Below, piece after piece: positions 3,304 through 33,660 of a stretch of 34,276 nucleotides of DNA; the stretch's first letter is position 1; the number at the start of each line of letters is the position of its first letter. The notes beneath the pieces are model-generated. The model was not told where the DNA came from, ran no database searches, and saw nothing but the letters and a program-made list of their open reading frames with translations. This DNA comes from Pseudotabrizicola algicola (GTDB taxonomy: Bacteria > Pseudomonadota > Alphaproteobacteria > Rhodobacterales > Rhodobacteraceae), in the NCBI RefSeq assembly GCF_010915705.1, contig NZ_JAAIKE010000016.1:1-34276 (forward strand), read 5' to 3'. The position numbers were made by a program, and so were the translations under genes.

Positions 3304-3523
3304 CGGGATCGCCAGTTTCTTTTCCCCGAGCCTATCAGCCGTCCGCGGGGTCTGGAACCTGCGTTCTGATTCGCGCGGCCCGTCGATTCCCCGCTCCACC
3401 GCGCTGAAACGCCTTGCGTGGAAATGCGCGCCACTTCCTTTTTATTAGCTATTTCAATGTGTTAGTTGACTGTCGCTGGCACTTCAGCACTGTGGAATGG
3501 AGGAAGCACCACCGAAGGTCGCC

Positions 3524-20400: not shown

Positions 20401-21431
20401 ACCGGGCGGTCCTCGCTGTCGCGGCTGACCAGACGGGCGGCAGAGCGGCCGACGCCGTTCACCGACCAGACCCGCGGGGTCGTGGCTTTCGCCGCCACCT
20501 CGACGCCCGGCCTGATCTGGCAGTTGCCCGCGCGCAGGTCGGTGCCGAACCAGGCAACGACGAGGCTGACGCTCTCCACCGCAGGCGCCATGGCCTGCAG
20601 CCGGTCGAGGGCGACGACGATGTCCGTCGTGTCGGGCAGCGCGTTCAGGTTCTCGGCGGTGGTGGTGCCGCCGCTGGTGCCGCCGAAGGCACCGCCCGTG
20701 GTCTTGCGGATCGCCTGTGTCGCATAGGTGAACTCGCCCGAGGCCGGGATCATGGTCACTGCGCGCGTCAGCCCCTCGGCCGTGTCGGGATCGGCCAGCG
20801 GGCGGAACACCTCGAAGGAGAGCTGCGGGATCCGGTTCCCGAACTCCGCCAGCGGCAGTTCCTCGAAGACGACATAAGCCGTGCCGCGATAGGCGGGCGT
20901 ATTGGCCGCGCCCATCTTCGCCGTGATGAACGGGTCCGGCGCCTGCGCCTCGTCGCCCGGATACCAGCGCATCGTGATGCCGCTAAGATCGAGCGGCTTG
21001 CCGTCGGCCCAGATGCGCCCGATCCCCGTGATCGGGCCTTCGCACAGGGCAACGGCGAAGCTGGCGTAGTAGAGATACTCGGTCGTGCGGACCTTCCCGC
21101 CGCCACCACCCTTGCCGCCGCCGCGCTGGGTCGTGGTCTTCGTCTCCTCGCGGAAATCCGTGGCCCAGACGATGTTGCCGCCGATGCGCATGCGGCCGTA
21201 GAGGCGCGGGATCACGGCGCCCTCGGTCGAGGAGGTGATGCGCAGGCTTTCCAGCCGCGCGCCCTCGATGCGCTGGGTGGGGGCGAGGGAGGAGATGATC
21301 CAGCTGTCGATGACCGAACCCACGGTCGAGCCGATCAGCCCGCCGATGGCGGCACCGGAGAGGCCGAGGATCGCGCCGCCGAAGCCCATGCCGATGCTGG
21401 AGCCGACGACGCCGAGAACGAGGGTGGCCAT
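17433..21431 (-). CDS. GTA TIM-barrel-like / tail hub (host-specificity) protein
   Basis: A 1332-aa protein, homologous in layout to the large baseplate hub/megatron protein at the end of the gene transfer agent tail cluster. The glycine-rich hydrophobic N-terminus (MATLVLGVVGSSIGMGFGGA) is followed by an N-terminal hub region. A GTA TIM-barrel-like glycoside-hydrolase domain comes next (about residues 430-740; ILHYAHLCKAAGGVDAFLIG, SYAADWSEYFG, FIGIDNYMPLSDWRDG, WFTELGCPAIDRG). Then come the phage tail-protein domain (about 790-1000) and a C-terminal region ending in short beta-rich segments. It likely forms the tip of the tail and contacts or digests cell-surface material. It follows the NlpC/P60 gene by eight bases, the same order as in RcGTA. 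Confidence 0.92.
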   Translation of the reverse strand: MATLVLGVVGSSIGMGFGGAILGLSGAAIGGLIGSTVGSVIDSWIISSLAPTQRIEGARLESLRITSSTEGAVIPRLYGRMRIGGNIVWATDFREETKTTTQRGGGKGGGGGKVRTTEYLYYASFAVALCEGPITGIGRIWADGKPLDLSGITMRWYPGDEAQAPDPFITAKMGAANTPAYRGTAYVVFEELPLAEFGNRIPQLSFEVFRPLADPDTAEGLTRAVTMIPASGEFTYATQAIRKTTGGAFGGTSGGTTTAENLNALPDTTDIVVALDRLQAMAPAVESVSLVVAWFGTDLRAGNCQIRPGVEVAAKATTPRVWSVNGVGRSAARLVSRDSEDRPVYGGTPSDFAVVQAIQEMKARGLRVTFYPFILMDVPPGNTLPNPYSDNAAETGQPVFPWRGRITCSPAAGFTGSVDKTGTATTQVASFFGSATPANFVVSGETVGWTGPAGDWGLRRMILHYAHLCKAAGGVDAFLIGSEMRGLTTIRSGASAYPAVQAFRDLAAAVRQILGAGTKISYAADWSEYFGHQPGDGSGDVLFHLDPLWADANTDFIGIDNYMPLSDWRDGFDHADALAGWPAIHDRGYLQANIAGGEGFDWFYASEADRSAQLRTLITDGAVGKPWVFRYKDLRAWWSEPHLNRPGGIESATPTAWVPQSKPVWFTELGCPAIDRGTNQPNVFFDPKSSESFTPHFSRGWRDDAIQRAYLEATYLWWGEAANNPLSSIYGGPMVHVPECAAWTWDARPYPFFPALTGVWTDGPNWRLGHWLTGRLGAVSLAALVRHLCLRAGLPAQRIDVSGLWGAVEGYVIGALESPRASITTLARHFGFDAVESGGVIRFGMRGRAAVAELGADDLVATPDPRAEGLELTRAQETELPQALKWQLARADEDYDAAQVEAQRITVSASRIASEAFPMAVAPEEAERRCRRALMEAWIGRETASFRLPPSRLALDPADVIRLVHDGRSLDFRLLSTADAEARGIEAIRQDRAAYDLPPGDLRPATLARPLVLAAPDVAFLDLPQLTEDQPAHRPFLAAHARPWPGELAVFRSPGSDGFELLTTVPARARMGVLVFDFWLGPVSRFDLGNALTLDLFTGSLESVTDLALFGGANALAVESAPGVWEIVQAGAAELIAPGRYRLTRLLRGQRGTEGAMGNPAPAGARVVVLDSTLALLPIALGDIGLPWNWRVGPATRPPSDETYVAQPFTPAGTGLRPFAPVHVAQPWRQARAPGDLTIRWTRRSRALEADAWEQVEVPVGEELEGYEIEIHDGASVKRVLSSGTTSVLYTAAQQTIDWGAPLAPGDTLALRIFQLSARLGRGAPASVTLQF

Positions 21432-21439
21432 GGCTGCGA

Positions 21440-21889
21440 TCAGTCTCCGGCGGGGAACAGGAAGGCGAAGGCGATGCGCCGGCGCCAGGATGGAGTGAGC
21501 GGTTCTTCGATCACCCCGAGCCGCTCATAGGCATGCAGGAAGGTTCCGGGCCCGGTCAGGATGCCGACATGCTTGGCGATGGCGCGGCTATCCATGCGGA
21601 ACAAGACCAGCGCGCCGGGCCCGGCCTCTGCGGGCGGCATTTCGATCATCACGGCGCGCGCGCCCTCGGCCAGAACCTCACGCGGCCCGATCTCGCCCCA
21701 GTCCCGGCTGTAGGGCGGGATCGGAAAGGGCTCCGGCCCGACCACCTCGCGCCAGACGCCACGCGCAAGCCCGAGACAGTCGCAGCCGACGCCCTTGAGG
21801 CTCGCCTGGTCGTGGTAGGGCGTGCCCAGCCAGGCGCAGGCGATGGTGATGACAAGCGCCGGATCGGCGGCGGCGCGCGGCGCTGTCAC
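21440..21889 (-). CDS. NlpC/P60-family phage cell-wall peptidase
   Basis: A 149-aa peptidase with the NlpC/P60 arrangement: Cys38 in GCDCLGLARG, His107 in AKHVGIL and a further polar residue around FLHAYE (His119). It matches the phage cell-wall peptidase family found between the DUF2163 protein and the GTA hub protein, where it probably opens peptidoglycan locally during DNA entry. The start is GTG at 21889, overlapping the preceding stop as GTGA, which supports this start. Confidence 0.9.
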   Translation of the reverse strand: MTAPRAAADPALVITIACAWLGTPYHDQASLKGVGCDCLGLARGVWREVVGPEPFPIPPYSRDWGEIGPREVLAEGARAVMIEMPPAEAGPGALVLFRMDSRAIAKHVGILTGPGTFLHAYERLGVIEEPLTPSWRRRIAFAFLFPAGD

Positions 21890-22770
21890 AGCACCGCCCC
21901 GTCATGCCCGCCGTCGCGCGAGGCGTAGCGCAGGATCGTGTCCTGCCCCGGAATGTGCGGGAAGCCCCGGAAATTGGTGACATTGCCGAACTTCGCGCTG
22001 CAGGTGGCGACGCGCTTGTCGCAGCCCGCCCGCGCGATGAAGCTGTCGCCCTCACCGATAGGGCGCACCGGTGCTTCCAGCAGCGTCAGGACGGCCAGCC
22101 CATCGACCAGATCATGCGCAAGCACCTCGGCCCGCCGTCCCGCATTGGCGCCGGAGGTCCATTCAACCGTGCCATGCGCGAACCAGCCCGCCGCGAAGGC
22201 GCCGAACCCCGAGGCCGTGAACGCCCGGTCGCGCAGTAGGTCCGTGACCGCGCCCGTGCCCCGGAACGCCGCCGCCTCGAGGTTCACGCCGCAGCGGCCA
22301 TCGCCCAGCGCGGCGTCGCAGCCCGCCTGAAACGTCCGCCCGACCGTCTGACCCAGCACATGCGAAAGGCTCCGGACCTCAGCCACGAAGGCCACCCGGC
22401 CGCGCCGGACCTGGCCGATGGCGCCCCGGCGCAGCAGCACGCGCTGGCCGGGATCGGCCCAGTTCACCCGCCAGAGCTCGACCTCGGCATTGTCCCAGCG
22501 ACCGTCGAGAATGTCGGTCTCGGTGATGCGGTCCGACGACAGAACCCCTTCGGCATCCTGCGCATCGACCGAGAGATCGGAGCCCGCCCGCACCTCGGAG
22601 GCGGTGAACCCGCTCTCGGGCTCGAAGTCGGTCCCCTCGAAGGTCAGCGTCCGGTCGTGGTCTGTGAAGCCGAAGGCCACGCCATCGGCGCGTGTGATCC
22701 GCCAGCACCAGGCCAGCGTCGTGGTCCCATCGTCGAGATGCGCCTGCAGGGCGGGAGGAAGGGTCTTCAT
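21886..22770 (-). CDS. DUF2163 phage tail (GTA gp13-like) protein
   Basis: A 294-aa protein starting MKTLPPALQAHLDDGTTTLA, with DUF2163 features: AWCWRITRADG, FGFTDHDRTLTFEG, YRP-like C-terminal cysteines (GCDAALGDGRCGVNLEA, ARAGCDKRVATCSAKFGN) and FRGFPHIPGQD. In GTA and related phages this family forms a hub subunit of the tail tip, with the C-terminal cysteines coordinating a cluster. The ATG at 22770 overlaps the stop of a 31-aa ORF, which fixes the start; a longer frame to 22800 is rejected. It is coupled downstream to the peptidase by GTGA. Confidence 0.9.
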   Translation of the reverse strand: MKTLPPALQAHLDDGTTTLAWCWRITRADGVAFGFTDHDRTLTFEGTDFEPESGFTASEVRAGSDLSVDAQDAEGVLSSDRITETDILDGRWDNAEVELWRVNWADPGQRVLLRRGAIGQVRRGRVAFVAEVRSLSHVLGQTVGRTFQAGCDAALGDGRCGVNLEAAAFRGTGAVTDLLRDRAFTASGFGAFAAGWFAHGTVEWTSGANAGRRAEVLAHDLVDGLAVLTLLEAPVRPIGEGDSFIARAGCDKRVATCSAKFGNVTNFRGFPHIPGQDTILRYASRDGGHDGAVL

Positions 22771-22862
22771 GGCCCATCCTCCCGCGACGCTGCCACGCAA
22801 AGCGCGACGACGGTGACGCCGATGACCCCGCCGAGGGTCATGCCGATAAGGAACTCAATCAC
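22767..22862 (-). CDS. 31-aa single-span membrane protein (DUF3789-like)
   Basis: A GTG-initiated 31-codon frame encodes an acidic N-terminus, a hydrophobic stretch rich in Gly/Val/Ile and a polar end (IEFLIGMTLGGVIGV, then ALCVAASREDGP). It resembles the tiny DUF3789 phage proteins. Its start overlaps the stop of the 76-aa gene (GTGATTGA) and its stop overlaps the ATG of the DUF2163 gene (ATGA), so it exactly fills an otherwise unexplained gap in a fully coupled operon. A role in lysis or the membrane is possible; none is shown. Confidence 0.6.
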   Translation of the reverse strand: MIEFLIGMTLGGVIGVTVVALCVAASREDGP

Positions 22863-23085
22863 GACCGTGGAACCCACGCTCGAGCCGGTCGCGCAGACCG
22901 ATCAGGCCAAGGCCGAGCGCGATCAGCGCCGCAGGAGAGGCGTCGCCGGAGCCCGAGAGCAGCGTGACCAGCCGGGCGAGCTCGGCGGGCGGGCCGCTCG
23001 CGGGCAGCGCCAGATTGGCGGTGCCGGTGGCAACGGCCATGAGGCCGGCCCACCAGGTCAGGGATCGGGGACGGATGTAGTGCAT
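22855..23085 (-). CDS. 76-aa phage-associated membrane protein
   Basis: A small protein starting MHYIRPRSLTWWAGLMAVAT, with a hydrophobic segment near residues 10-27 and a second near 50-65 (SPAALIALGLGLIGLRDR), then a basic tail (LERGFHGRD). It lies three bases after the lysozyme gene and overlaps the 31-aa ORF by eight bases. The position among the endolysin, the holin and small membrane proteins suggests a lysis-cassette component, but the family is not recognised with certainty. Confidence 0.7.
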   Translation of the reverse strand: MHYIRPRSLTWWAGLMAVATGTANLALPASGPPAELARLVTLLSGSGDASPAALIALGLGLIGLRDRLERGFHGRD

Positions 23086-23088
23086 GGG

Positions 23089-23760
23089 TCAGACCCTCCG
23101 GGTGAGGTTGGCGAAGACAGCGGCCAGCCGGGCAAGCCAGCTGGCCGGGGGTTCGGGATGTCGCGGCATGACGGGTGCCAGTGGCGCGGGCTGCGGGCGC
23201 ATGAAGGCCAGCGCTTCGGTCTCGGTCAGCCGCCGGATGGGCCGCGAGAAGTCGACCCGACCGTTGCGGTCGACCGACCAGACGGGGATCGACCCGCCCG
23301 GATAGCGGCCGTGGCGGAAGAGATCGCGCTCGGACTCGCGGCGGGGGATGATCGAGGCGGGCCTGCGCCAGTTGAGGAAAGCCTCGGCCGCCGCCGCACG
23401 GTCGCCCGCGTTGAGGTGCCGGGTCAGCGCGGCCTTGGCGATGCCGCCGGTGTTGTAGTGGAAGCTCACCAGCGCGTCGAACTCGTGCGGGGCGAGCGGG
23501 ACTTTCACGGCGCGGCGCACCTCGGCCTCGTAGGCGGCGAGGTCCGACCGGAACAGCCCGAAGGCCTCGCGGATCCCGGCTTGCGTGTCGGCGGGCATGC
23601 CGCGGGGCATGCTTGCGGGGTCCGGCGGCCCGGCCTCGGCGGTGTGACCGATGCCGAAGGTCCAGACGTTTTTCACGTCGAGATAGGGTCCGGGCACAAT
23701 GCCCTCGTGGCGGATCAGCGCCAGCTGGCCGCGATCCGTGGTCCTGGTCGTCGTCTGCAT
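23089..23760 (-). CDS. Phage lysozyme (GH24 endolysin)
   Basis: A 223-aa muramidase. The T4-lysozyme-type triad is visible with correct spacing: Glu19 (LIRHEG), Asp28 (PGPYLD) and Thr34 (VWTFGIGHT). The FDALVSFHYNTG segment and the LTRHLNAGDRAAAAEAFLNW helix are also family features. It cleaves the glycan backbone of peptidoglycan at lysis. There is no signal peptide, so release needs a holin, and a holin-like gene lies just upstream in the same operon. The last 50 residues are Pro-rich and extend beyond the catalytic domain. Confidence 0.9.
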   Translation of the reverse strand: MQTTTRTTDRGQLALIRHEGIVPGPYLDVKNVWTFGIGHTAEAGPPDPASMPRGMPADTQAGIREAFGLFRSDLAAYEAEVRRAVKVPLAPHEFDALVSFHYNTGGIAKAALTRHLNAGDRAAAAEAFLNWRRPASIIPRRESERDLFRHGRYPGGSIPVWSVDRNGRVDFSRPIRRLTETEALAFMRPQPAPLAPVMPRHPEPPASWLARLAAVFANLTRRV

Positions 23761-23764
23761 GGGG

Positions 23765-23896
23765 TCACCTCAGGAGCGAGAGGAGGAGGATCAGCCCCGC
23801 GACGACGAGGCCGACGCGGAGGCGATGGGCGAACTGGCGCCCGGGGCTGGGGCTGTCGCAGCGGATCAGGCGCGCGAGACGCAGGAGCTCAGGCAT
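23765..23896 (-). CDS. 43-aa small membrane protein in the lysis cassette
   Basis: A 43-aa frame starting MPELLRLARLIRC and ending in a hydrophobic helix (VGLVVAGLILLLSLLR). Its ATG overlaps the stop of the holin-like gene by eight bases, and its own stop lies four bases before the lysozyme start, so the operon structure supports translation. The basic N-terminal half followed by one C-terminal membrane span could make it an accessory holin or spanin-like factor; this is inference. Confidence 0.6.
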   Translation of the reverse strand: MPELLRLARLIRCDSPSPGRQFAHRLRVGLVVAGLILLLSLLR

Positions 23897-24236
23897 CGTC
23901 CTTGCCCCCCTTGCCCCGCAGGCGGGCGAGCGCGACCTCGATGAAGGCCGGGCCGAAGACGCCGACGAGATAGGCGGCGGAGCCTGCCGCCCCGCCCGCC
24001 GCCACCGTCTCGGGCGGCAGGTCGAGCCAGCGGGCGACGATGGCCATGGAGAGACTGCCCATCCCGGCCGCAATGATCCCGCCGAGGAGGATGTGCCGGA
24101 TCGCGTCACGCAGGCGCATGCGGGTGGTCAGTGCGTTGGTCGCGCCGCCAAGCGCGCCCCAGGCGGCGAGGATGACCGCGGCGGACGTCAGGACATCGCG
24201 CAGCACCCCGAGAATGAAGCTGCCGCTGTCGTTCAT
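23889..24236 (-). CDS. Holin-like membrane protein
   Basis: A 115-aa protein with three probable membrane segments: about residues 8-30 (ILGVLRDVLTSAAVILAAWG), 48-68 (HILLGGIIAAGMGSLSMAIV) and 77-100 (TVAAGGAAGSAAYLVGVFGP). A charged C-terminal tail follows (RLRGKGGKDDA). Size, topology and position directly before a small membrane protein and the lysozyme fit a phage holin, which would open the inner membrane to let the lysozyme reach the wall. The start overlaps the DUF2460 stop in ATGA. Confidence 0.75.
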   Translation of the reverse strand: MNDSGSFILGVLRDVLTSAAVILAAWGALGGATNALTTRMRLRDAIRHILLGGIIAAGMGSLSMAIVARWLDLPPETVAAGGAAGSAAYLVGVFGPAFIEVALARLRGKGGKDDA

Positions 24237-24859
24237 CGGCGGATCTCCAGGAGCGGGATGGAGGCGATCGAGCCGAGGCGCTCGAGGTCGAGCGTCACGT
24301 CGAGCGTGTCGGTGTCGAAGCGGACGGGGGTGTCGAACTCGAAGCCCGCGGTGACGGGGACGCCCGCGCCGGGGGCCGAGCCGAAGGTGACGAGGCCGGT
24401 CATGGTGTCGACCGACCAGCCCGAGAGCTGCTCGGTCCCGCCGAGTGCCACGCGGACGGTGCTCGCGACGGGCTTGGCGATGGCGCGCGTCCAGGACTGC
24501 GGGCCGGAGGCGTAGCGCTTCGCCAGCGGGAATGTCGTGCGGACGCCATTGCCAGTGCCGAGCGGCTGATCCAGCGGCGAGGCCGTGCCCGAGGGCAGGC
24601 AGGACTTGTGGTCGCCCCAGTCCTTGAAGCGGAAGCCGTGGAGCCTGCCATTGCGCGCCTCGAAGAACGCGACCACTGCTGCGAGATCGTCGGCGCGGCG
24701 GATGCCATAGGCGACGTCGTAGCGGCGACGCGAGTTCGCCCAGCTGGCGTTACGCTCCTCGTCGCCCGAGGCCAGCTCGACCACCTGCGTGCGCCGCTCG
24801 GGCCCGCCGCGCGCGCCACGGCTGATCGCGTCCGGAAACCGGACTTCGTGAAACGCCAT
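24233..24859 (-). CDS. DUF2460 phage tail (GTA gp12-like distal tail) protein
   Basis: A 208-aa protein starting MAFHEVRFPDAISRGARGGP, the characteristic opening of DUF2460. Other family segments are RRRYDVAYGIRRADDL, FFEARNGRLHGFRFKDWGDH and the end GFEFDTPVRFDTDTLDV. In gene transfer agents this family is the distal tail protein joining tail tube and hub. It follows the tape measure gene by eleven bases. Here the lysis genes lie between DUF2460 and DUF2163, whereas in RcGTA the two tail genes are adjacent. Confidence 0.92.
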   Translation of the reverse strand: MAFHEVRFPDAISRGARGGPERRTQVVELASGDEERNASWANSRRRYDVAYGIRRADDLAAVVAFFEARNGRLHGFRFKDWGDHKSCLPSGTASPLDQPLGTGNGVRTTFPLAKRYASGPQSWTRAIAKPVASTVRVALGGTEQLSGWSVDTMTGLVTFGSAPGAGVPVTAGFEFDTPVRFDTDTLDVTLDLERLGSIASIPLLEIRR

Positions 24860-24870
24860 GCTAGGGATCC

Positions 24871-27045
24871 TCAGAGACCGCGGCGGCCCATCGACACCGC
24901 GCGGGCGATGTCGGCGGCGACTTGCGTCCGCGATTGCCGGAAGCTCTCCGCGTCGCGGGTCATGATTGTGACGTTGACGGAGGGCGCGGTGCCGCGCCCG
25001 CCATATCCCGCAGCCTCGCGGCGCGAGAGCACCCGCTCGCCGCGCTGCAGGATCGCGGGCACCTCGTCGGGTTTCAGTCCGACCCAGCCGCCGGAGTGCA
25101 TCCGCGGCGCGCCCGCGAAGGCCAGTGCCGGGACCATCCGGCCGGGACCGGGAGCGCCCACCGTGCCGCCCGCATGCAGGACCGAGGCAAACATGCCCCC
25201 GGCGCCGCCGAGCACGCCCGAGAGCAGCCCCGCCAGCGGGCCGAGGATGAAGCGCCGCGCGGCGAGCCGGGCCAGATCGGCGATCATCGAGGTCACCAGA
25301 TCGCGGAAGTCGAACTTGCCCTTGCGCACGAAGTCAGCGACCGCGTTCTCGGCCGCGCCGAACGCTCCCACGAGCGCCTGGCCGATATCCGCGCCGATCT
25401 CGCGCGCTCTTGCGGCATAGTCGGCGAGCGCGGCGGTGACCGCCTGCCATCCGGTGACGGCGTCCTCGGCGCCGGTGGCGGTGTCCGCCCCTGCCTGCCG
25501 CCCAGCGGCGCCCGCGCGGCCTGCCGAGGTCTCCGCCTCGTCCAGCGCCTCGGCAACGCGCCGGGCCCCGGCGGCAGCGGCATCGAGTGCGCCTTCGGTT
25601 TCCTCGCCCGACCCGCGCACGGCCTCGACCAGCGCGGTGACGGCCTCGCGCACCCCGTCGAAGGCTCCCGCGCGGGTGTCCGCTGCCCGCTGGCGGAACC
25701 GCTCGGCCATAGTGCCCGCGTTGCTGGCGGCATGATCCAGCATCGAGGCCCAGGACTGCGCGCCGAACCAGTCGATCTGGAAATCCGCGCCGATCCGGTC
25801 GGCCACGGCATTGAAGGTCGGCCCGATCATCCCGAGGAAGTCGGCCCATTTCCCCGCAAGGAAAGCCATCAGGCGGGTCCAGATGCCCTCGATATCCGCG
25901 CGCAGAGCCCGGAAGTCGTCGACCAGCGAGCCCATGGTCGTCTTGATGCCGTCCCAGACCGCGCGGGCGACATTGCCCATCAGCTCCAGCGCATTGCCGA
26001 AACCCCCGGCGCCCGTGACAAGGCGGGAAAATTGATACACCAGTTCCCCTGCGCCGACGATCAGCGCCCCGATGCCAGTGCGGATCAGCGCGCCGCGCAG
26101 GACCACGAGCGCAGTGGCTAGCCCGCGCACCGACAGCGCCGCAGCCGCCAGCCCCGCGACCCAGCGCCCGGCCATCAGGGCGGCGAATGTGCCCGCGATG
26201 CTGACAAGTCGGCCAAGGTTGTCGAAGAGCATGCGGATCGCGATGCCGAGCGGCCCGGTGGTGCGCGCCACCGCCGCCATGGCATCGGCGACAGCCTCCA
26301 GCGCGGGCGCGGCGGCAACGGCCAGCTGGTTCGACAGCCCGCGCCAGATCAGGCCGAGGCGCGAGATGGCGTCGTTGGTCCGCTCGATCTGGCGCGCGTC
26401 CTGTTCGCTGACGACGACGCCGAAATCCCGCACATCCTGTGTCGCCTGACGCAGCGTGGCGGTATCGATCCGTGTGAACACGAGCGCCGCACGGTCGCCG
26501 AAGAGCTGCGAGGCGATGGCCGCGCGCTCTGCCTCGGGCACGAAGTCCGCCAGCCGGTCCTGGATCAGCGCGATCCGCTGGTCGAGCGGCAGGGCCTGCA
26601 GTTCTCCCGCCGACAGCCGCAGGCGGCGAAGGGCTTCCGTCGCAGGTCCGGCCCCGGCGGCGGCCTGGCTCAGCCGCCGCGTCAGCTGCATCGCCGCCTG
26701 TTCGACCTGGCCCATGGACACGCCCGCCAGATCGCCCGCGCGTTCGAGCACCTGGATGCTCTCGACTGTCGTATCCAGCGAGGCCGCGAGCTTGGCCTGC
26801 GCATCCACGACGGACAGCCCCGAGCGGATCATCGCCGTGGCCGCCGCCGCAAGCGCCCCGGCTGCCGCCGCCGCCGCGATCCGCGCGCGCCGCGCGAAAG
26901 CGGCGAGCCGGGTGTTGGCCAGCTCCATCTCGCGCGACAGTCGACCGAAGCCGCGCGCACCCGCTTCGCCGACACCTTCCAGTTCGGCACGCACCTGCCG
27001 ACCGCCCACCGCCGCAAGGCGGACGCTGACACGCTTTTCCGTCAT
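24871..27045 (-). CDS. Phage tail tape measure protein
   Basis: A 724-aa protein, Ala-rich and mostly helical. It opens with MTEKRVSVRLAAVGG, a basic amphipathic start seen in tape measures of this group, followed by long coiled-coil-like helices (residues 20-110) and hydrophobic segments around 270-345 (AGTFAALMAGRWVAGLAAAALS, LIRTGIGALIVGAGELVYQF). The C-terminal part has a Gly-rich stretch (GPLAGLLSGVLGGAGGM) and ends DIARAVSMGRRGL. It sets tail length and is ejected at infection. Its place after the frameshifting G/GT chaperone genes is the canonical siphovirus arrangement. Confidence 0.9.
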   Translation of the reverse strand: MTEKRVSVRLAAVGGRQVRAELEGVGEAGARGFGRLSREMELANTRLAAFARRARIAAAAAAGALAAAATAMIRSGLSVVDAQAKLAASLDTTVESIQVLERAGDLAGVSMGQVEQAAMQLTRRLSQAAAGAGPATEALRRLRLSAGELQALPLDQRIALIQDRLADFVPEAERAAIASQLFGDRAALVFTRIDTATLRQATQDVRDFGVVVSEQDARQIERTNDAISRLGLIWRGLSNQLAVAAAPALEAVADAMAAVARTTGPLGIAIRMLFDNLGRLVSIAGTFAALMAGRWVAGLAAAALSVRGLATALVVLRGALIRTGIGALIVGAGELVYQFSRLVTGAGGFGNALELMGNVARAVWDGIKTTMGSLVDDFRALRADIEGIWTRLMAFLAGKWADFLGMIGPTFNAVADRIGADFQIDWFGAQSWASMLDHAASNAGTMAERFRQRAADTRAGAFDGVREAVTALVEAVRGSGEETEGALDAAAAGARRVAEALDEAETSAGRAGAAGRQAGADTATGAEDAVTGWQAVTAALADYAARAREIGADIGQALVGAFGAAENAVADFVRKGKFDFRDLVTSMIADLARLAARRFILGPLAGLLSGVLGGAGGMFASVLHAGGTVGAPGPGRMVPALAFAGAPRMHSGGWVGLKPDEVPAILQRGERVLSRREAAGYGGRGTAPSVNVTIMTRDAESFRQSRTQVAADIARAVSMGRRGL

Positions 27046-27066
27046 TGGGGTCGCCTCGTGGAGGGG

Positions 27067-27731
27067 TCAGCCGCGCTCGGCGGCAAGGGTTTCGTTGGTC
27101 TTGCGCACCATCACGGCCTCGATGGGCGGCAGGAACTCGGCCATGGCCAAAGGCGGGACACCCAGCGCGCGGCCGAGGCTGAGCGCCGCGCCCATGTCCC
27201 AGCCGATCACCGCGCCGGGGAGGATTCGCAGCTGGCCGCCGAGGCGCTGCGCGAGGTCCCAGACCTGTGTGCCCTCAAGGGAGAGCGGCCGGTTCAGCCC
27301 TGCCGGGCAGTCCGGGCAGGCTTGCGGACACGCCGCGCAGTAGCTTTCGCCCCCGCCGTAGGACCACTCGGCGAGGGCGCAGAGGCGTTTTTTTCCTGTT
27401 CCAGCAGCAGGCCCTTCGCCACATAGGCCGCCTGGAAGGCCTCGAAGGCGGGCCAGATTTCGAGGAGCGCGTCGATCCCCTCGGGCGTCACGCTGACCGG
27501 GTTGCCCTCGGCATCGCCGATGCCTTCCCACTCGAGCACCGCGCGCCGCGCCACGGCCTTGGCCATGGCGAGCGCCAGTTCCTCGGTCGTGGCCTCGGGC
27601 GGCATGGCCTCGACCACTGGGTCGGCCCGGGCCGAGACCATCAGCGCGGTGGTCAGCGGGCGCAGCTTCAGCCGCACCCCGGGCAGCAGGTCGAGCCAGC
27701 GCGGCGCATTCGTCAGGTCCAGCGTCAGCAT
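27067..27731 (-). CDS. Tail assembly chaperone, -1 frameshift fusion (GT-like)
   Basis: The zero-frame coding runs 27731 to 27387. A -1 slip then continues from 27387 to a stop at 27067, giving about 221 aa (115 plus 106). The -1 frame after the slip reads RLCALAEWSYGGGESYCAAC and ends VMVRKTNETLAAERG. That is clearly protein-like and has no good independent start, and it stops 21 bases before the tape measure ATG. The T part carries a C-x2-C-x3-C-x2-C cluster (CAACPQACPDCP), suggesting a small metal knuckle. The fusion is inferred from the slippery heptamer, gene order and coding quality. Confidence 0.75.
27294..27731 (-). CDS. Tail assembly chaperone, short form (G-like)
   Basis: A 145-aa zero-frame product starting MLTLDLTNAPRWLDLLPGVR. 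Its ATG shares one base with the tail-tube stop (TGATG), so the longer frame from 27770 is rejected. The body (about residues 1-112) is acidic and helical; after the slippery site the zero-frame tail is a low-complexity, basic Ala/Ser/Pro/Arg stretch ending KPARTARQG. In siphoviruses the G protein works with its frameshifted partner to chaperone the tape measure during tail assembly. Function is assigned by position and by the frameshift arrangement. Confidence 0.8.
   Translation of the reverse strand: MLTLDLTNAPRWLDLLPGVRLKLRPLTTALMVSARADPVVEAMPPEATTEELALAMAKAVARRAVLEWEGIGDAEGNPVSVTPEGIDALLEIWPAFEAFQAAYVAKGLLLEQEKNASAPSPSGPTAGAKATARRVRKPARTARQG
27387..27396 (-). promoter_or_regulatory. Programmed -1 ribosomal frameshift site
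   Basis: On the minus strand the sequence is GGAAAAAAAC, read in the zero frame as CAG GAA AAA AAC. It contains the canonical slippery heptamer A AAA AAC in the correct phase. The -1 frame downstream is open for 106 codons. No stem-loop was modelled, but the downstream region is very GC-rich. Confidence 0.8.
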
Positions 27732-28675
27732 CAGTACGTCTCCCTCTCGTTCACCAGCGTCACCGTGCACATCCGCCCCAGCACCGGATCGACCGCCGCC
27801 TGCCAGTCGAAGGTGGCCTGGATGCCCTGCGGGCCGGGCACCTCGATGCGCGGGCGCGGCAGGTAGACGGCGTGGATCGTGAAGGTCAGGCTCTCGCCCG
27901 AGGGCAGCGTCCAGCCGAGTTCGATCTCGCAGGCGTCTCCGGCGATGGCTTGGTTGGCCAGCACCTGATCGGCGAAGCGCACCTCCATCCGGCCCGTGAG
28001 TGCGGCCATGCCGGGGTCGGCGCCGTCGATGCGACCATCGGCGCGGATGGTCTCGATCCGGTCGAGGTTGTTGGCATAGGTCACCTCGGCGGTGACGAGA
28101 TTGCCGAGCGCCGTGCCGTTCCGGGTGACCATGCCGTTGAAATGGCCGAAGCGCAGCAGGTCGAGTGCCGCCGGTGTGGCCGCCCCGGTAGTCGCGGCCA
28201 GCGCCTCGCCCTGCGCGACCAGCCGGGCGGTGGCGGTCAGCAGCCCCGCGCGCTGCATCTGGAACGAGAGCTGGTCGACCACGCAGCCCGCATACATGGC
28301 GAACCGCGGCACCTCGGGCATGGCGACCTCGATGGCCATCGAGGGCAGCACCCAGCCGCCCGAGCGGAACTCGTGGCTATAGGGCCCGGGCGCGGTGCCG
28401 GTGGTTGTCGGCGCCCCGAACGCTCCTTTCAGCCAGAAGCCGAAGGCATTGGCGTCGATCGGCACGACCATGTCGCCATCCGCCGTCAGCGCGTCCTTGA
28501 TCGGCGCCAGCGGATCGCGGCCATAGCCGAGCAGCTCGGAGTTCAGGAGCGGCTGCTCGGCCCCCAGCGTGGTGCTGGCAAACGGCATCCGCGTGTAGCC
28601 GCTGGCCGGCGGCGTGCCATAGGTCGTCTCGAACGCAAGCGCCATCAGCGCCCGCGCCCCCTGGGCTCGTGCCAT
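27731..28675 (-). CDS. Phage tail tube (major tail) protein
   Basis: A 314-aa protein, MARAQGARALMALAFETTYG..., with the N-terminal FETTYGTPPASGYTRMPF pattern of tail tube proteins. Alternating beta-strand segments and a central conserved region (MAIEVAMPEVPRFAMYAGCV, VDQLSFQMQRAGLLTATARL) follow. The end is strand-rich (CEIELGWTLPSGESLTFTIH). It would polymerise into the tail tube. It lies between the tail-terminator-like gene and the G/GT chaperones, the standard siphovirus place. Its stop overlaps the G start by one base. Confidence 0.88.
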   Translation of the reverse strand: MARAQGARALMALAFETTYGTPPASGYTRMPFASTTLGAEQPLLNSELLGYGRDPLAPIKDALTADGDMVVPIDANAFGFWLKGAFGAPTTTGTAPGPYSHEFRSGGWVLPSMAIEVAMPEVPRFAMYAGCVVDQLSFQMQRAGLLTATARLVAQGEALAATTGAATPAALDLLRFGHFNGMVTRNGTALGNLVTAEVTYANNLDRIETIRADGRIDGADPGMAALTGRMEVRFADQVLANQAIAGDACEIELGWTLPSGESLTFTIHAVYLPRPRIEVPGPQGIQATFDWQAAVDPVLGRMCTVTLVNERETY

Positions 28676-28699
28676 GGTATTCTCCTCGGGTTGTCGGGG

Positions 28700-29119
28700 T
28701 CAGGCCAGCGGGTCGGCCGTGGAATAATGCAGAACCACCGGGATCACGGCGGCCTTCAGGCTGGCCGCGCCCTCGACGGGCAGATCGACCGGGCGCGGAG
28801 CTTCCGCCTCGACCCAGTCGCAAAGCCCGCCCAGCGTGCGGTCGGCTGCGAGCGCCGTGCCGATGCTGGCGGTCAGCGTGTCGAAGGCGGCGTCACGGGC
28901 GATGCCCTGCACGATAGCCTCGATCTCGGCGCGATGCTGGTAGTGGTAGGTGAGCGGCGATAATGTCACCTCGGGTTCACCCGGCTCGCCATCCCGCAGG
29001 ACCAGCAGGCCAACGGCCGGCACGCGCTCAGGCAGCACCTCGCCGCGCAGGGCGGTCGCGGGCAGCGCCGAGAGCCGCGCGTGCAGCGCGGCGAGGATTG
29101 TCTCGCGGAAGGTGGGCAT
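28700..29119 (-). CDS. Tail terminator / minor tail protein
   Basis: A 139-aa protein (MPTFRETILAALHARLSALP ... VVLHYSTADPLA). The helical start, LLVLRDGEPGEPEVTLSPLT, the YHYQHRAEIEAIV strand and the DLPVEGAASLKAAVIPVVLH ending match the compact fold of tail-completion proteins just upstream of tail tube genes. It would cap the tail tube and help join it to the head. Its start is 22 bases from the ATG of a divergent plus-strand cargo gene, which separates it from the upstream head-tail genes. Confidence 0.75.
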   Translation of the reverse strand: MPTFRETILAALHARLSALPATALRGEVLPERVPAVGLLVLRDGEPGEPEVTLSPLTYHYQHRAEIEAIVQGIARDAAFDTLTASIGTALAADRTLGGLCDWVEAEAPRPVDLPVEGAASLKAAVIPVVLHYSTADPLA

Positions 29120-29127
29120 GCCGAACC

Positions 29128-29136
29128 TGTTATAAT
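29128..29136 (+). promoter_or_regulatory. Extended -10 promoter of the 723-aa cargo gene
   Basis: TGTTATAAT contains a perfect TATAAT (29131-29136) with the TG extension. The predicted transcript start falls at about 29142-29143, on or next to the cargo ATG, which suggests leaderless translation. No good -35 is seen at the expected distance, as is common for extended -10 promoters. Confidence 0.6.
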
Positions 29137-29141
29137 TCGCT

Positions 29142-31313
29142 ATGTTGCGAGCGCTGATCCGAGCCAGAATCGGAGATATTCATGGGCCGACAATGGCGGA
29201 ACCGATAATGACCGAATTTCAACCAGAGCCGCGTCCTTCAGCGGAAATCTTTGCAGACTTGCGTAGCCTTGCGACCTCAGACGGAGCAATACACGGTATT
29301 TCAGAGATCATCTTCCGCGACTGGGTCTATACGATCGACACGCAAGAGCGAACCGTCGTCGATGATCCGGAACACCGTTGGTCGACTTCCCGCCTAAACA
29401 AGCCGGAATTGATGCTCCTGCTGGGATTGGCAGTCCAGTCTGAGTCTGATCGAACACATACTGTGCTCGGCTACGCCTCGATCTTCATGTCGGAGGCTGA
29501 CCGGCTTCTTCGGGAGCTTCACGACCGCGTCATGATCGACGTCAAATCTGCGCTGCCCGCAAACTTGCTTGAGGTTGAGAACCCCCTTGATGTTGTCGGT
29601 CCGATGGCCCGCGAAGCCATTTATTACGCTGCAGAAAGTTTCTATCTCCATCAGTTCCCACCGTTTATCCGTCAAAGATACCGGCGCGACGGCGACTGGC
29701 TTCTGCGAAGTAAGGGTATCTCTATCCTCCCGATGATCGAAATCGCCCGGTTCATCTCGGACCGGATCAACCGACAGATGTCAGTGGTCGGTCACCTCCG
29801 TAAGTCGGGCACCGCCCTGAATAGCGGTGACCTGACCAACAGCCTAATGATCCCGCTCGCGGACATTCGACGAAAGTTCAAAGGCAAGGCGGACGCGTTC
29901 GACCGACTGTTCGCGATCAATGTGACCGCGACCAACCTCGGCTTCACGGATCCGTTTGCGATCAACGAGGCCATGATCTGTCCGATCGTTCGGATCGGCG
30001 ATTTCCTCTACGTTCCTAATCAGTACCGGCTCTTCGAAACGCTCTATGAGAGCCCCTTCTACTGGATGTTGCGGGATGAGAACTACATGGAAATCGCGAA
30101 GGCTAACCGCGGCACTTTTCTTGAGGCTACCGCGGCGCAAATCCTTCGATCCGTGTTCGGGTCGGAGAACGTCCATGAGAACGTGACCCTCTACAGTGGG
30201 ACGAAGGACAAGGCGGGTGAGATCGACATCCTCGTCACGTACGGAGAGTTCGTGCTGGTCGTCCAAGCGAAGTCCAAGCGGATCACCATGCAGGCTCGGG
30301 CGGGTGACAAGGCCGCATTGCGCCGGGATTTCCGTGACGCTATCCAGGCCCCCTACGGCCAGGCGCTGACGTGCGCACGGTTGATTAGAATGGGTGCCAC
30401 TTGCGTTCGGTCTGACGGAACCAAGATCGAAGTGCGCCGTGTGAACCGGTTGTTCCCGATGGTGGTCCTGAGTGACCACTTTCCCGCGGTAACCATGCTG
30501 GCCCGTAGCCTTCTAGAACGCGAGAAGGAGATTGCGCCTGTCATCTGGGATCTTGGAGTTTTGGACTGTGCCGCCCGGCTCTTTCCGAACCCGATCGACA
30601 TGATCTTCTACCTGAAGAGCCGCTCTGATCTGTACGACCAAGTCATGTCGGAAAGCGAGCACTGCTTCATAGGCTTCCACCTGACGCACAAGTTGGCCCT
30701 GCCAGATGAGTTCCACGGTCTGGCCATCGACCGGGATTACGCGCAGCCGGTCGACGACTTCATGATGCCCTTCGATGTGGGGGTGGAGGGTATCCGCCCG
30801 AAAGGGATCTTGGAGCGCATCGATATACCGATTGTCACCGATCTCCTGAGGGAGCTGAGATCCAAGGGGCCAGAAATCGCCGCGGTGGTGGTCGATCTCT
30901 ACGACTTCTCGAGTGAGATGCTTCGCGACATGGCGGCGCATATCACCCAACTTCGAAAAGAGGTAGCCGCAGGAAAGGCACTTAAGGCATTTTCGATCCC
31001 AACCACGGCCGGAGGCCTGACTTACGTTGTAGTTGACCATTTGAGCGAGAAATCACGCGCAGCAGCGAGCAGCATTGGCAGGAAGCACAAGTACGACACC
31101 AAAAGCTCGCACTGGTACGTGATCGTCGATTGTATCCAGACCGGCAACCCTATCGACGAGCTCGGATGCCTCGTTTGGGAATGGCAACAGGATCACGAGG
31201 AGCAACGACTTGCAGATCAGGTATCAGGTTTGTTTAGATCGAGTCGCTCTGTCATTCAGGTGGGTGATGCATCAAAGGCTTTAGCGGACAAGGCAAAAGA
31301 TGCTTCCACTTGA
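29142..31313 (+). CDS. Putative Mrr-like (D...QxK) nuclease-domain protein, opposite-strand cargo in the prophage late operon
   Basis: A protein of up to 723 aa that I do not recognise as a named family. The helical N-terminal half (residues 30-320) has no clear domain. A nuclease-like core follows: Glu328 (GTFLEATAAQIL), Asp362 in GEIDILVTYGEF and Gln375-x-Lys377 in VLVVQAKSKR. This is the D...QxK form of the PD-(D/E)xK fold seen in Mrr-type restriction enzymes. The last 330 residues are of unknown type. The start is uncertain: 29142 fits a leaderless transcript from the TATAAT box, while 29193 and 29208 are alternatives. It sits on the plus strand between DUF6441 and the tail terminator, both minus, and is visibly less GC-rich than its neighbours. 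These are signs of an acquired moron, perhaps anti-phage. Function is inferred. Confidence 0.75.
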   Translation: MLRALIRARIGDIHGPTMAEPIMTEFQPEPRPSAEIFADLRSLATSDGAIHGISEIIFRDWVYTIDTQERTVVDDPEHRWSTSRLNKPELMLLLGLAVQSESDRTHTVLGYASIFMSEADRLLRELHDRVMIDVKSALPANLLEVENPLDVVGPMAREAIYYAAESFYLHQFPPFIRQRYRRDGDWLLRSKGISILPMIEIARFISDRINRQMSVVGHLRKSGTALNSGDLTNSLMIPLADIRRKFKGKADAFDRLFAINVTATNLGFTDPFAINEAMICPIVRIGDFLYVPNQYRLFETLYESPFYWMLRDENYMEIAKANRGTFLEATAAQILRSVFGSENVHENVTLYSGTKDKAGEIDILVTYGEFVLVVQAKSKRITMQARAGDKAALRRDFRDAIQAPYGQALTCARLIRMGATCVRSDGTKIEVRRVNRLFPMVVLSDHFPAVTMLARSLLEREKEIAPVIWDLGVLDCAARLFPNPIDMIFYLKSRSDLYDQVMSESEHCFIGFHLTHKLALPDEFHGLAIDRDYAQPVDDFMMPFDVGVEGIRPKGILERIDIPIVTDLLRELRSKGPEIAAVVVDLYDFSSEMLRDMAAHITQLRKEVAAGKALKAFSIPTTAGGLTYVVVDHLSEKSRAAASSIGRKHKYDTKSSHWYVIVDCIQTGNPIDELGCLVWEWQQDHEEQRLADQVSGLFRSSRSVIQVGDASKALADKAKDAST

Positions 31314-31442
31314 GTCTCCTCGCGGATCGATAGCAACCCTCAGCCAAACCGAAGATCAGAAGAGCGTTGATGATCGAGGGCACCCGCTGTTCCATTGCCG
31401 GTGGTAATTGACGCGCGATTACCTAACCCAAACCACAATCGC

Positions 31443-32075
31443 TTAACGCATTCGCGCCTCCACCCACTTCGCAACGATCAGCCCCGGCACGGCGTCATGC
31501 GCCCGCGCCGCATCTCGCGCCAGGTCGAGCCGCTTCGGCAGCTTGACCTGCGGCACAAGCAGGAAGATCGGCACCGTGGTCGCGCCCCGACCGGTTTTCG
31601 CCCGTGACGCCACGGCGCGGCCCTTCGTGTTCAGCCGTCCTTCTGCGACAAGCAGGCTCGGCCCCGCTCGGCGATAGACGAAGCGCAGGCGCAGCCCCGA
31701 GCGGCGCTCCCACTCGCCGGGGGTGATCCGCCCCCCGCGCAGGGATTTGCCTGCGGCGGGAAGCGGGATCGCGAGCCAAAAGCCGTTCTTGGAGCGGATC
31801 AGCGGGCCAGTGTCGTGGGCACCGATGATGACCGGGGCCTTCGACCAGACCAGCGCCGCAGCGCTGAGGCTCGGTTTGCCCTTCGGGAACTGCTCGGACC
31901 GGATGGTGCGGGCGAGCCGGGCCCCGAGGCCCGCGCCAGTGATCTGCGCGCGCCAGGCGTCCTTTAGGCCGGTCCCGGCCTCGCGGATCGCGGCTGAGAC
32001 GGCGCGCTCGCCCGCCGCGACTTCGGCCGCCATCATCGCGACGATGTCGGGATCGATGTCGAGCTTCAGTTTCAC
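31443..32075 (-). CDS. DUF6441 phage protein (tail/neck component)
   Basis: A 210-aa basic protein. The GTG at 32075 overlaps the preceding stop as GTGA, giving the start MKLKLDIDPDIVAMMAAEV. Segments such as LGARLARTIRSEQFPKGKPS, APVIIGAHDTGPLIRSKNG and FWLAIPLPAAGK match the DUF6441 family of Rhodobacterales phages, a minor component encoded between the head-tail joining protein and the tail terminator. Its position suggests a neck or tail-completion role. The normal downstream neighbour has been displaced by the 2.3-kb opposite-strand cargo gene. Confidence 0.82.
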   Translation of the reverse strand: MKLKLDIDPDIVAMMAAEVAAGERAVSAAIREAGTGLKDAWRAQITGAGLGARLARTIRSEQFPKGKPSLSAAALVWSKAPVIIGAHDTGPLIRSKNGFWLAIPLPAAGKSLRGGRITPGEWERRSGLRLRFVYRRAGPSLLVAEGRLNTKGRAVASRAKTGRGATTVPIFLLVPQVKLPKRLDLARDAARAHDAVPGLIVAKWVEARMR

Positions 32076-32383
32076 GCGGGCCTCAGATCCACGGTCCAGA
32101 CCAGCCGCTCGCGGTCGCGGACGGGCTCGCCCTGGATGAGGAAAGCGTCGCCGTCGATCTCGACCCGGTCGCCTGCACGCGGATTCGCCACCTCGCTCAC
32201 GCGCAGGTCGATCTGCGTGGTCTCGGTCCAGAGCCGGGCATCGCCGAAGTCGGTGATCGCATCTGCACGCCGGGCGACAATGCGCACCAGTTGTGGCGCG
32301 CCGCCCTCGGCAACATAGACCGCGTCCCGCCCGATGTTCGGATCGGCGAAGAGCAAATCGACAGTGGATGCAAAGACATTCAT
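32072..32383 (-). CDS. Phage head-tail joining protein
   Basis: A 103-aa protein (MNVFASTVDLLFADPNIGRD ... RERLVWTVDLRPA). Small size, a short N-terminal helix followed by beta strands (VRIVARRADAITDFGDARLW, RVEIDGDAFLIQGEP), and position between capsid and tail genes fit head-tail joining proteins. GGGGAC about ten bases before the ATG is a usable ribosome-binding site. The ATG is only 15 bases from the ATG of the divergent plus-strand cargo gene. The stop is coupled to DUF6441 by GTGA. Confidence 0.78.
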   Translation of the reverse strand: MNVFASTVDLLFADPNIGRDAVYVAEGGAPQLVRIVARRADAITDFGDARLWTETTQIDLRVSEVANPRAGDRVEIDGDAFLIQGEPVRDRERLVWTVDLRPA

Positions 32384-32386
32384 GGC

Positions 32387-32392
32387 TATGCT
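32387..32392 (+). promoter_or_regulatory. Possible -10 element of the 280-aa cargo gene
   Basis: TATGCT ends seven bases before the ATG at 32399, so a transcript from it would begin at the ATG itself. No clear -35 or ribosome-binding site is visible. The placement parallels the other cargo gene, but the match to consensus is only fair. Confidence 0.3.
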
Positions 32393-32398
32393 GTCCCC

Positions 32399-33241
32399 AT
32401 GACACTTGTTTCCATTTCCCAGAGCCCCGCTCGCAGCCGTGCGCTTGTTGCCCTCAGAAACGCACTGATCCGTCAGCGCCCTGACGGGTCGATCGACGAC
32501 AACGGCTATGCCTCAGATTTCCGGGGAAACCTGCTTCCGATAGTCCTGCCGGAGGACTTCGAGGCCGATCTCAGTGCGGGCGACGGAAACGAGCTTCAGA
32601 GCAAGTTCCGAGCGGCGCATTCCTCGTCAGCCCTTGCCGTGAACTGCTTTGCGCCGTTCCGTCGTCGCATTGGTGACTTGGTCATGTCAGACAGTGCGGC
32701 CTTCGATCACCTCCAGTTTGAGCGGAAATGCCCCACAGGTCTGCGCGGCGGGCGTTCCCCGAACCTCGACGTTCTGCTTTCAGGCCCAACTGAAGTGGTG
32801 GGGATCGAGTCCAAGCTGACCGAGTACCTTGTCAGACACCGCGCCGCCTTCTCGCCTGCCTACGCCCAGCAAATCCGCGACGACCGCCGCGATCATGGGT
32901 ATTTTCGCGAGATGCTCCGCCTCAATGACGCGCCGGACAGCTATGTCTGGCTCGATGCGGCCCAGCTCATCAAGCATGCCTTCGGTCTGGCGCACACGTT
33001 CCGCGACCGCCCCACCACGCTCCTCTATCTGTTCTGGGAACCGCAGAACCCGGATGAATGCCCCGAGTTTGCGGCACATCGCGCCGAGATCGCGGCCTTC
33101 GCCGAACGGGTCTCGGGCGCAGGCCCGAGTTTCGTCGCCATGAGCTATCCGGAGCTCTGGAAAACCTGGGCGCTGACCGGGCCGGAATGGTTGACGAAAC
33201 ACCTCGCGGAACTCCAAGCTCGGTATTTCGTCACCATCTAG
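32399..33241 (+). CDS. Putative PD-(D/E)xK restriction-endonuclease-like protein, second opposite-strand cargo
   Basis: A 280-aa protein starting MTLVSISQSPARSRALVAL. A nuclease core is visible: Glu65 in GNELQSKFRAAHSSSALAVN, Asp124 in RSPNLDVLLSG and Glu137-x-Lys139 in VVGIESKLTEYL, giving E...D...ExK. This resembles stand-alone restriction-endonuclease-like proteins of the PGN_0703 type. The C-terminal half (TTLLYLFWEPQNPDE, FVAMSYPELWKTW) is mixed alpha/beta. It lies on the plus strand between capsid cement and head-tail joining genes, 15 bases from one start and six bases from the other stop, so it is compactly inserted. No methyltransferase partner is adjacent. A role in defence or superinfection exclusion is inferred; cleavage is not demonstrated. 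Confidence 0.78.
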   Translation: MTLVSISQSPARSRALVALRNALIRQRPDGSIDDNGYASDFRGNLLPIVLPEDFEADLSAGDGNELQSKFRAAHSSSALAVNCFAPFRRRIGDLVMSDSAAFDHLQFERKCPTGLRGGRSPNLDVLLSGPTEVVGIESKLTEYLVRHRAAFSPAYAQQIRDDRRDHGYFREMLRLNDAPDSYVWLDAAQLIKHAFGLAHTFRDRPTTLLYLFWEPQNPDECPEFAAHRAEIAAFAERVSGAGPSFVAMSYPELWKTWALTGPEWLTKHLAELQARYFVTI

Positions 33242-33247
33242 GCCCGC

Positions 33248-33583
33248 TCAGAACGCGCCGTTCAACCGCACCCGGCCGATGGTGTCGCCCGCGCCGCTGG
33301 CCACAGCCTCGGTCGCCACGCCGATGAGGGTGTTGTCGGTCGCGACGGTGGTGCAGCGCTTGTTGGTGTCGTCCCAGTAGACCTTGGCGCCGACGGTCCA
33401 GGCCTGGGAGCCGACCTTGGTGATGTCGAACACGCCGACGAGCGCGGTCTCGACGGGTTCGCCGAGGGCAGCGGTGCCGGAAGCGACGCCGAAGATGGAG
33501 CCGACGAGCAGGCCCTCTCCGGAGGCGACGGCATAGGGCGCGGTCAGGGTGATGGTGTTGCCGGGCTGGACGTAGTTTTTCAT
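33248..33583 (-). CDS. DUF2190 capsid cement/decoration protein
   Basis: A 111-aa protein (MKNYVQPGNTITLTAPYAVA ... GRVRLNGAF) with the DUF2190 signature: an N-terminal YVQPGNTITLTAP, a Gly/Ala-rich SGEGLLVGSIFGVAS and the WTVGAKVYWDD segment. These proteins sit on the capsid surface and stabilise it. An AAGGATC ribosome-binding site precedes the ATG, and the gene lies directly after the major capsid gene, the usual order. Confidence 0.9.
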   Translation of the reverse strand: MKNYVQPGNTITLTAPYAVASGEGLLVGSIFGVASGTAALGEPVETALVGVFDITKVGSQAWTVGAKVYWDDTNKRCTTVATDNTLIGVATEAVASGAGDTIGRVRLNGAF

Positions 33584-33609
33584 GGACGTGATCCTTGTGG
33601 AAAGACGAA

Positions 33610-33631
33610 GGGCGGCCCGTCGGGACCGCCC
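33610..33631. other. Hairpin between capsid and cement genes
   Basis: gggcgg...ccgccc pairs across this 22-base interval, with inner ccc/ggg pairing and one bulge, in the 77-base gap between the capsid stop and the cement start. There is no T-run, so it is more likely a processing or attenuation stem that lets capsid and cement be made at different levels than a full terminator. Confidence 0.45.
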
Positions 33632-33660
33632 GCATGTCAGGGTTCAGCATGGGATGCGGA

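Follow-up and report, generated by a model that had tools for sequence, protein, structure and literature searches.

The window, by which we mean the whole 34,276-base stretch of DNA analyzed here, is an entire contig (C8 of the host genome) that carries the head-tail operon of a prophage and ends within its capsid gene. An integrase gene at positions 3497-4678 suggests that the element is temperate. Profile searches place a tail terminator gene at 28700..29119 (minus strand; phrog_4204, 5.8e-43) and a DUF6441 gene at about 31443..32156 (minus strand; PF20039, 5.2e-48). Beyond these two genes, the operon continues with the tail tube, chaperone, and tape measure genes on the one side and, on the other, with the head-tail attachment gene (32072..32383, minus strand; PF05354, 2.5e-25) and the major capsid gene, which is cut by the contig end (33661..34275, minus strand; PF25209, 1.4e-39). 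The terminator and DUF6441 genes are separated by about 2.3 kb of cargo (29120..31442), which holds a plus-strand gene for a predicted NERD-type nuclease (29142..31313; 723 aa from the ATG of the listed ORF). A first-pass annotation of this DNA had described a plus-strand gene of lower GC content splitting a minus-strand operon between these neighbors; the profile matches bear out both neighbors, and the GC content is 0.560 in the gene versus 0.713 in window positions 20001 to 28999.

A chance reading frame is excluded by near-identical full-length copies at three other loci (L002, L003, and L076; 94.6 to 96.3% protein identity to the window copy), together with dN/dS values of 0.14 to 0.32 among the four copies, which indicate purifying selection. 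The true start is probably Met23 (nucleotide 29208) or Met18 (nucleotide 29193), with 29208 as the probable choice, since codons 1 to 22 lack the third-position excess seen in the rest of the gene, a weak test given the few differences between the copies. Relatives with about 50% identity begin to align only at residues 16 to 36, and residues 1 to 24 are the sole listed segment of an AlphaFold2 model with a pLDDT below 50. The hexamer TATAAT at 29131..29136 (plus strand), the only plus-strand copy in the whole window, lies inside the block common to the copies elsewhere and is a candidate −10 element that would travel with the gene; a consensus scan found no −35 element for it, and a simple scan found no terminator for the gene.

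A second opposite-strand cargo gene, coding for a REase-ARP nuclease (32399..33241, plus strand, the start at 32399 being a guess within the listed ORF 32291-33241; PF22558, 3.7e-38), is flanked by the attachment gene and by a short ORF of 111 aa (33248-33583). Genes 68% identical to it were found in two others of 82 contig stretches (L086 and L175, the latter matching PF22558 at 1.6e-36). In all likelihood, the ORF 33231-33650 lies in a wrong frame, and the genuine small gene at this place is probably 33248-33583; no count depends on the former. Elsewhere in the window are genes for an 1,115-aa protein (8847-12194, plus strand) matching phrog_3830 (unknown function, 3.9e-169) and a 685-aa protein (12944-15001, minus strand; GC content low for the phage) matching phrog_21165 (unknown function, 1.1e-55).

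The predicted NERD-type core and its family

Searched as a whole protein, the product matched the Pfam NERD domain (PF08378) over residues 324 to 417 at 19.8 bits (E value of 1.2e-3), below the cutoff of 22.1 bits; searched as a genome segment, the same stretch scored 23.9 bits, above the cutoff. A profile of 54 members of the family, compared with a profile of six NERD domains from related genomes, matched it with a probability of 89% (E value of 2.3e-6). Over residues 324 to 417, the NERD profile alignment puts the glutamate and the aspartate in matching places and aligns the last lysine, with a QxK in the protein at the place of the ExK of the six compared domains. These residues, E328, D362, and Q375-A-K377, are present in the translation just as they had first been read and are almost invariant across 61 aligned sequences (E328 in 60, D362 in 61, Q375 in 59, and K377 in 61), a set that includes the window copy, a few near-duplicate rows, and one distant partial relative (L081). 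The AlphaFold2 model, built on a 54-row alignment (mean pLDDT of 88.8, pTM of 0.89), predicts with high confidence a helix at residues 316-339, strands at 344-351, 357-367, and 370-377, a helix at 390-416, and a strand at 436-443. D362 lies on the second of these strands, and the QxK closes the third one. We take this helix-strand-strand-strand-helix-strand order to be the one expected of a PD-(D/E)xK core. Judged from sequence and model, residues of about 316 to 443 (of which 324 to 443 are encoded by 30111..30470, plus strand) are most likely a NERD-type PD-(D/E)xK nuclease core. The first-pass annotation had proposed a D...QxK nuclease core around residues 328 to 377, and the order of helices and strands predicted there agrees with such a core. 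Its assignment of the core to the Mrr type has to be replaced: the D...QxK pattern is one that the core has in common with Mrr enzymes, but profile-profile comparison with nine Mrr domains (PF04471) gave 3.7% against the 89% for NERD, and there is no Pfam Mrr_cat match in the host genome.

Apart from the QxK in place of ExK, the protein differs from NERD proper in that the core sits in a protein of 700 residues between two large flanking regions, many of the relatives also being SEC-C tailed. According to the model, the N-terminal region (residues 25 to 310) is mostly helical and the C-terminal region (445 to 700) is of mixed helix and strand; no Pfam family was found above the cutoff before or after the core. 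In a PDB profile search, the matches were to SEC-C-type tails (the best at 1e-7) and, at the level of chance, to kinesin (two matches, E values of 0.35 and 0.38). Among 54 aligned members, a SEC-C-like motif forms the C-terminal end in 38 and is lacking in the window copy, L002 to L010, L016, L031, L043, L046, L058, and L078.

Portions of two papers describe NERD modules as effectors within BREX PglW and DndF (PMC12839542, PMC10853773). PglW (BREX type 2), DndF, and the present family all have a NERD nuclease built into a large protein, but no kinase or P-loop family was detected in the protein studied here, and a scan of ten window proteins around its gene found none of BREX or Dnd type. The earlier remark that no named defense system has this architecture still stands, as PADLOC-DB of 2023 gave only a weak "Viperin-associated NERD" match (8e-5). 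No viperin gene lies beside the NERD gene, the scanned neighbors being phage structural genes and the REase-ARP gene.

Of 80 candidate stretches taken from the genome collection, 73 encode relatives with 22 to 95% identity, so that there are at least 73 such loci, in hosts that span Proteobacteria, Bacteroidota, several candidate phyla, and archaea. Relatives were found in 32 of 72,556 plasmid records, in none of 50,697 phage records, and on five IMG/VR contigs, one of which is the window itself. In the host family, 4 of 295 genomes (that of the window included) gave any match; two of these have weak partial matches only, and the presence of a full-length copy in only 2 of 295 marks the gene as accessory. 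Copies with 95% protein identity in Gemmobacter tilapiae (L002, with L080, on a contig of equal length, 14797, probably being the same record) and in a Rhodobacteraceae MAG (L003) lie outside recognizable phage head-tail sequence and have in common with the window only the DNA of 29103-31320. The first 17 bp of this common block fall within the terminator gene; because they are only partially similar, and because the sequence immediately upstream of that gene varies between phages with other inserts, we draw no direction of transfer between phage and non-phage copies.

In L002, the NERD gene is directly followed by a gene with a SMEK_N domain (2785-3957; PF21941, 3e-34), and a closely similar second gene follows it in L003 (12317-13489). 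This linkage is limited to L002, L003, and L080, and the phage has no SMEK_N gene; the phage copy could therefore be missing a partner that is present after the non-phage copies. Among 745 neighbor ORFs of the relatives, no conserved operon partner was found, with no cluster reaching beyond five loci, which suggests that the NERD protein may work alone.

For 37 of the 73 relatives, we also compared the four nearest filtered ORFs (90 to 900 aa), a set of 147 proteins after one self-fragment was dropped, with 141 control ORFs taken from 37 chosen places that lie on these contigs at a distance of no less than about 32 kb. At 1e-10, the neighbors matched 291 PADLOC models and the controls 31, these being counts of overlapping models rather than of proteins. 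Among the neighbor matches listed, the top ones are to type IIG enzymes (four proteins) and type I specificity subunits (three proteins); the listed control matches include DpdF, BrxHI, mad8, and caspase models, with one protein each and none with more than one. HsdR- or HsdM-like genes lie within 6 kb of 7 of 71 relatives versus 0 of 37 controls (HsdR-like genes alone, 5 of 71 versus 0 of 37), with seeds that came from the test set, so the comparison is not decisive. The sequence neighborhoods are thus suggestive only of chromosomal relatives sitting near restriction and other defense genes more often than controls do.

The cargo slot between the DUF6441 and tail terminator genes

The NERD gene sits at a junction with exceptional variability in related phages. 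We collected the best 80 IMG/VR matches to the DUF6441 gene of the window and the best 80 to its tail terminator gene, a sample selected for likeness to the window rather than a census. It yielded 132 contig stretches with both genes on one strand, 129 of which have 375 to 3,232 bp between the two genes and 3 of which have none. These include the window contig twice and the phage contig L076; with both removed, along with the duplicates of three contigs listed under two locus numbers, the junction is filled (at least 300 bp) in 123 of 126 distinct related contigs. Insertions of at least 300 bp are present at the neighboring attachment/DUF6441, terminator/tube, and tube/chaperone junctions in 3 of 130, 8 of 131, and 5 of 115 cases, respectively, and the capsid/attachment junction exceeds 700 bp in 9 of 78 (median of 415 bp). 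The chaperone/tape measure junction (about 27045-27294 in the window) is at least 300 bp long in 22 of 98 relatives (median of 222 bp) and may be a lesser variable site in addition to the slot or else the product of a misplaced start.

Clustering of the DUF6441 genes at 97% nucleotide identity reduces the 132 stretches to 114 groups. In 112 of these every slot is filled, and the other 2 include an empty one; among the three empty contigs, L124 and L126 have identical DUF6441 DNA. Two groups each hold two different inserts, which reflects recent exchange of the slot content. Whatever the insert, similarity resumes at the terminator start codon in the 66 rows compared (every second one of 132). 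The inserts have a mean GC content of 0.574 (standard deviation of 0.052; n = 128, including 30 bp of flank on each side) against 0.692 (standard deviation of 0.017) for the DUF6441 genes. By the longest protein-like ORF, 68 of 129 inserts run against the operon and 53 with it, with 8 unassigned; by codon-position GC, the figures are 68, 42, and 18 of 128. Both counts are heuristic and include three contigs twice, and the longest-ORF count misread cases such as the cation efflux slot of L346.

The same arrangement extends beyond this sample. Among 20 fetched genome loci, 19 show both flanks; in 18 of these the flanks lie 429 bp or more apart, and in 1 the slot is empty (the 20th, L354, is without the terminator gene); three of the 19 (L350, L352, and L353) have DUF6441 DNA identical to that of IMG/VR contigs and so are not independent. 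In the cultured phages RcKemmy, RcKvothe, and RcOceanus, 3 of 11 matching Rhodobacter records, the slot is empty and the DUF6441 and terminator genes, at 46 to 47% and 49 to 52% identity to those of the window, overlap by 4 bp. The NERD gene is thus absent from the same place in relatives and unlike its surroundings in GC content, as the first reading of it as a phage-borne moron implied; related contigs apart from L076 and L077 have either different inserts or an empty slot, so it is not a structural gene conserved in all relatives. As judged by these sequences, the junction is a hypervariable cargo slot of temperate tailed Rhodobacteraceae phages.

Between the window and L076, the NERD genes are 96.4% identical, whereas the terminator genes are 85.5%, the tube genes 76.7%, and the available parts of the DUF6441 genes 80.8% identical, which indicates that, in these phages, the NERD gene is of more recent date than the backbone. 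The same insertion point and the same disparity would also be produced by a selfish homing-type nuclease spreading into the empty site of related phages. Nucleases of another type do occur close by: at the junction between the capsid gene and the 111-aa ORF, HNH endonuclease-type genes in operon direction are present in 6 of 82 contig stretches having capsid and attachment matches (HNH_3 by Pfam in L099 and L153; genes 82 to 95% identical to that of L099 in L085, L152, L203, and L209), and these are likely homing-type insertions, though at a junction other than the slot. Recombination through the conserved flanks gives the same pattern, however, many non-nuclease genes occupy the very same site, and the NERD gene is also found outside phages without phage flanks; we accordingly regard homing as the least probable of the explanations considered here, with only a slight chance of being right.

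The host genome itself illustrates the range of cargo. Eight DUF6441 matches at seven places on contigs C1, C2, C8, C28, and C29 mark seven related prophage loci (the window and L343 to L348), counted by these matches with no implication that the prophages are complete, and the loci have six different payloads and one empty slot. Besides the NERD gene on C8, the payloads are ShosTA on C29 (ShosA, 1.4e-100; ShosT, 7.7e-38), a toxin-antitoxin-like pair of a Gp49-family toxin-like gene and a helix-turn-helix (HTH) gene on C2, a chromate transporter (by Pfam) with a putative rhodanese-like gene on C1, two cation efflux genes at a second place on C1, and, on C28, a gene for a protein of 505 aa with a Phage_Mu_F domain, together with an ORF of 136 aa; the second place on C28 is empty, with a gap of −4 bp. 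A gene for a shorter, canonical NERD protein (332 aa; Pfam, 2.7e-14; PglW-like, 4.8e-14) occupies the slot in a second genome of the genus, indicating that two different NERD proteins have reached this site.

More broadly, we obtained 142 slot ORFs from 90 inserts (421 ORFs, 279 clusters, then 185, and finally 142, nested or unprotein-like frames having been dropped). They match 95 Pfam families, 15 by two or three ORFs and the others by one. The matches listed include GNAT acetyltransferases (three), cation efflux, TauE, ParE toxin, and HEPN families (two each), NERD (two, one being the studied family, in L076), DarT1-associated NADAR, sulfate and chromate transporters, and QueC; hydrolases are found as well. 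Fifty-one PADLOC models are also matched, among those listed PDC-S31 (two), PD-Lambda-2_B, PDC-M19A/B, PDC-M72B, DarT, mad1, PD-T4-5, and PglW, although PADLOC holds generic enzymes and a match is not in every case a defense gene. ShosTA is an experimentally proven defense system and is reportedly among those described by Rousset et al. in 2022. With conserved flanks and varied contents that include this known system, the slot qualifies as a hotspot; given chromate transport, cation efflux, acetyltransferases, and hydrolases among its contents, position in the slot does not imply defense.

It is this mixture that lends weight to a second explanation, in which the NERD gene is a moron with a nondefense fitness role for the lysogen, such as DNA repair or DNA end processing. 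The breadth of the family across bacteria and archaea is in keeping with such a role, and the SEC-C-like end of many members says nothing of defense. Against it stand the patchy occurrence in the host family and the greater number of restriction and defense models matched by chromosomal neighbors than by controls. We consider a nondefense role unlikely, though the strongest of the competitors to a defense function.

Portions of the study of P2-like and P4-like phages by Rousset et al. (2022; PMC9122126) describe hotspots at a fixed place in a phage clade with variable small payloads, including antiphage systems, the P4 hotspot lying beside the cos site. The present slot differs from these in lying inside the head-tail operon, where it splits two genes that, with the slot empty, share 4 bp, and in having metal and transport genes among its payloads as well. 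Morons of lambdoid phages are extra genes between structural genes with their own promoter and terminator and a differing base composition, and those of temperate phages are said to have been treated by Cumby et al. in 2012. The NERD gene resembles them in its place between structural genes, its own base composition, possibly its own promoter, and its absence from close relatives; it differs in that the scan found no terminator at the gene and in that the slot is filled in nearly all of the sampled contigs. Portions of a paper on the Paracoccus virome describe prophages with toxin-antitoxin and metal resistance genes and mention no fixed slot there (PMC6536676), and the word "moron" is absent from the portions consulted of a Rhodobacter phage paper (PMC8601537). 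No prior account of the slot or of the NERD family was found in the literature searched, in which subscription journals were thinly covered. Morons and phage defense hotspots as such are already known.

Proposed role of the NERD gene and of the slot

On the balance of these observations, we favor as reasonably probable the proposal that the NERD gene is a single-gene, DNA-cleaving defense or superinfection exclusion effector carried as cargo. In a lysogen, it would be expressed from its own short TATAAT promoter, and the flanking regions of the protein might serve to sense, or to bind, a signal related to infection or the end of a DNA molecule. The nuclease would then cut the DNA of an incoming competing phage or, as an abortive response, that of the host, and such cleavage would protect the lysogen and hence the prophage.

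The location of the gene inside a phage structural operon would suit an antidefense or anticompetitor gene acting in lytic growth, for instance, by degrading host or satellite DNA, and matches to defense models cannot separate defense from counterdefense. However, the gene opposes the operon and has a TATAAT of its own, and its relatives are mostly found in bacterial and archaeal genome contigs, some near restriction genes. A role in lytic growth therefore appears improbable to us, and a defense effector acting in the lysogen remains the preferred reading.

A wider proposition combines two parts, namely, that the slot is, in a large clade of Rhodobacteraceae phages, a dedicated and almost always occupied site that spreads single-gene defenses and that the NERD family is an undescribed single-gene, DNA-cleaving immune family. 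We advance this combination only tentatively, as a possibility that we would not yet bet on. If it is true, the slot would be a natural collection point for small defense and fitness genes in this phage clade, the testing of its uncharacterized contents would amount to a direct screen for new defense genes, and the NERD family would represent an additional nuclease system of a single gene, with putative sensing regions. The slot could then be read from two conserved neighbors without a prior model of its contents. The seven related loci in one genome, with their six payloads and one empty slot, make both payload swapping and the cost to virion assembly directly testable.

As a separate observation on slot content, a protein of 505 to 545 aa (Phage_Mu_F in L348) accompanied by a small second ORF is found both in L348 (6604-8522) and in L361 (7229-9090); the two genes could be a toxin/immunity-like pair.
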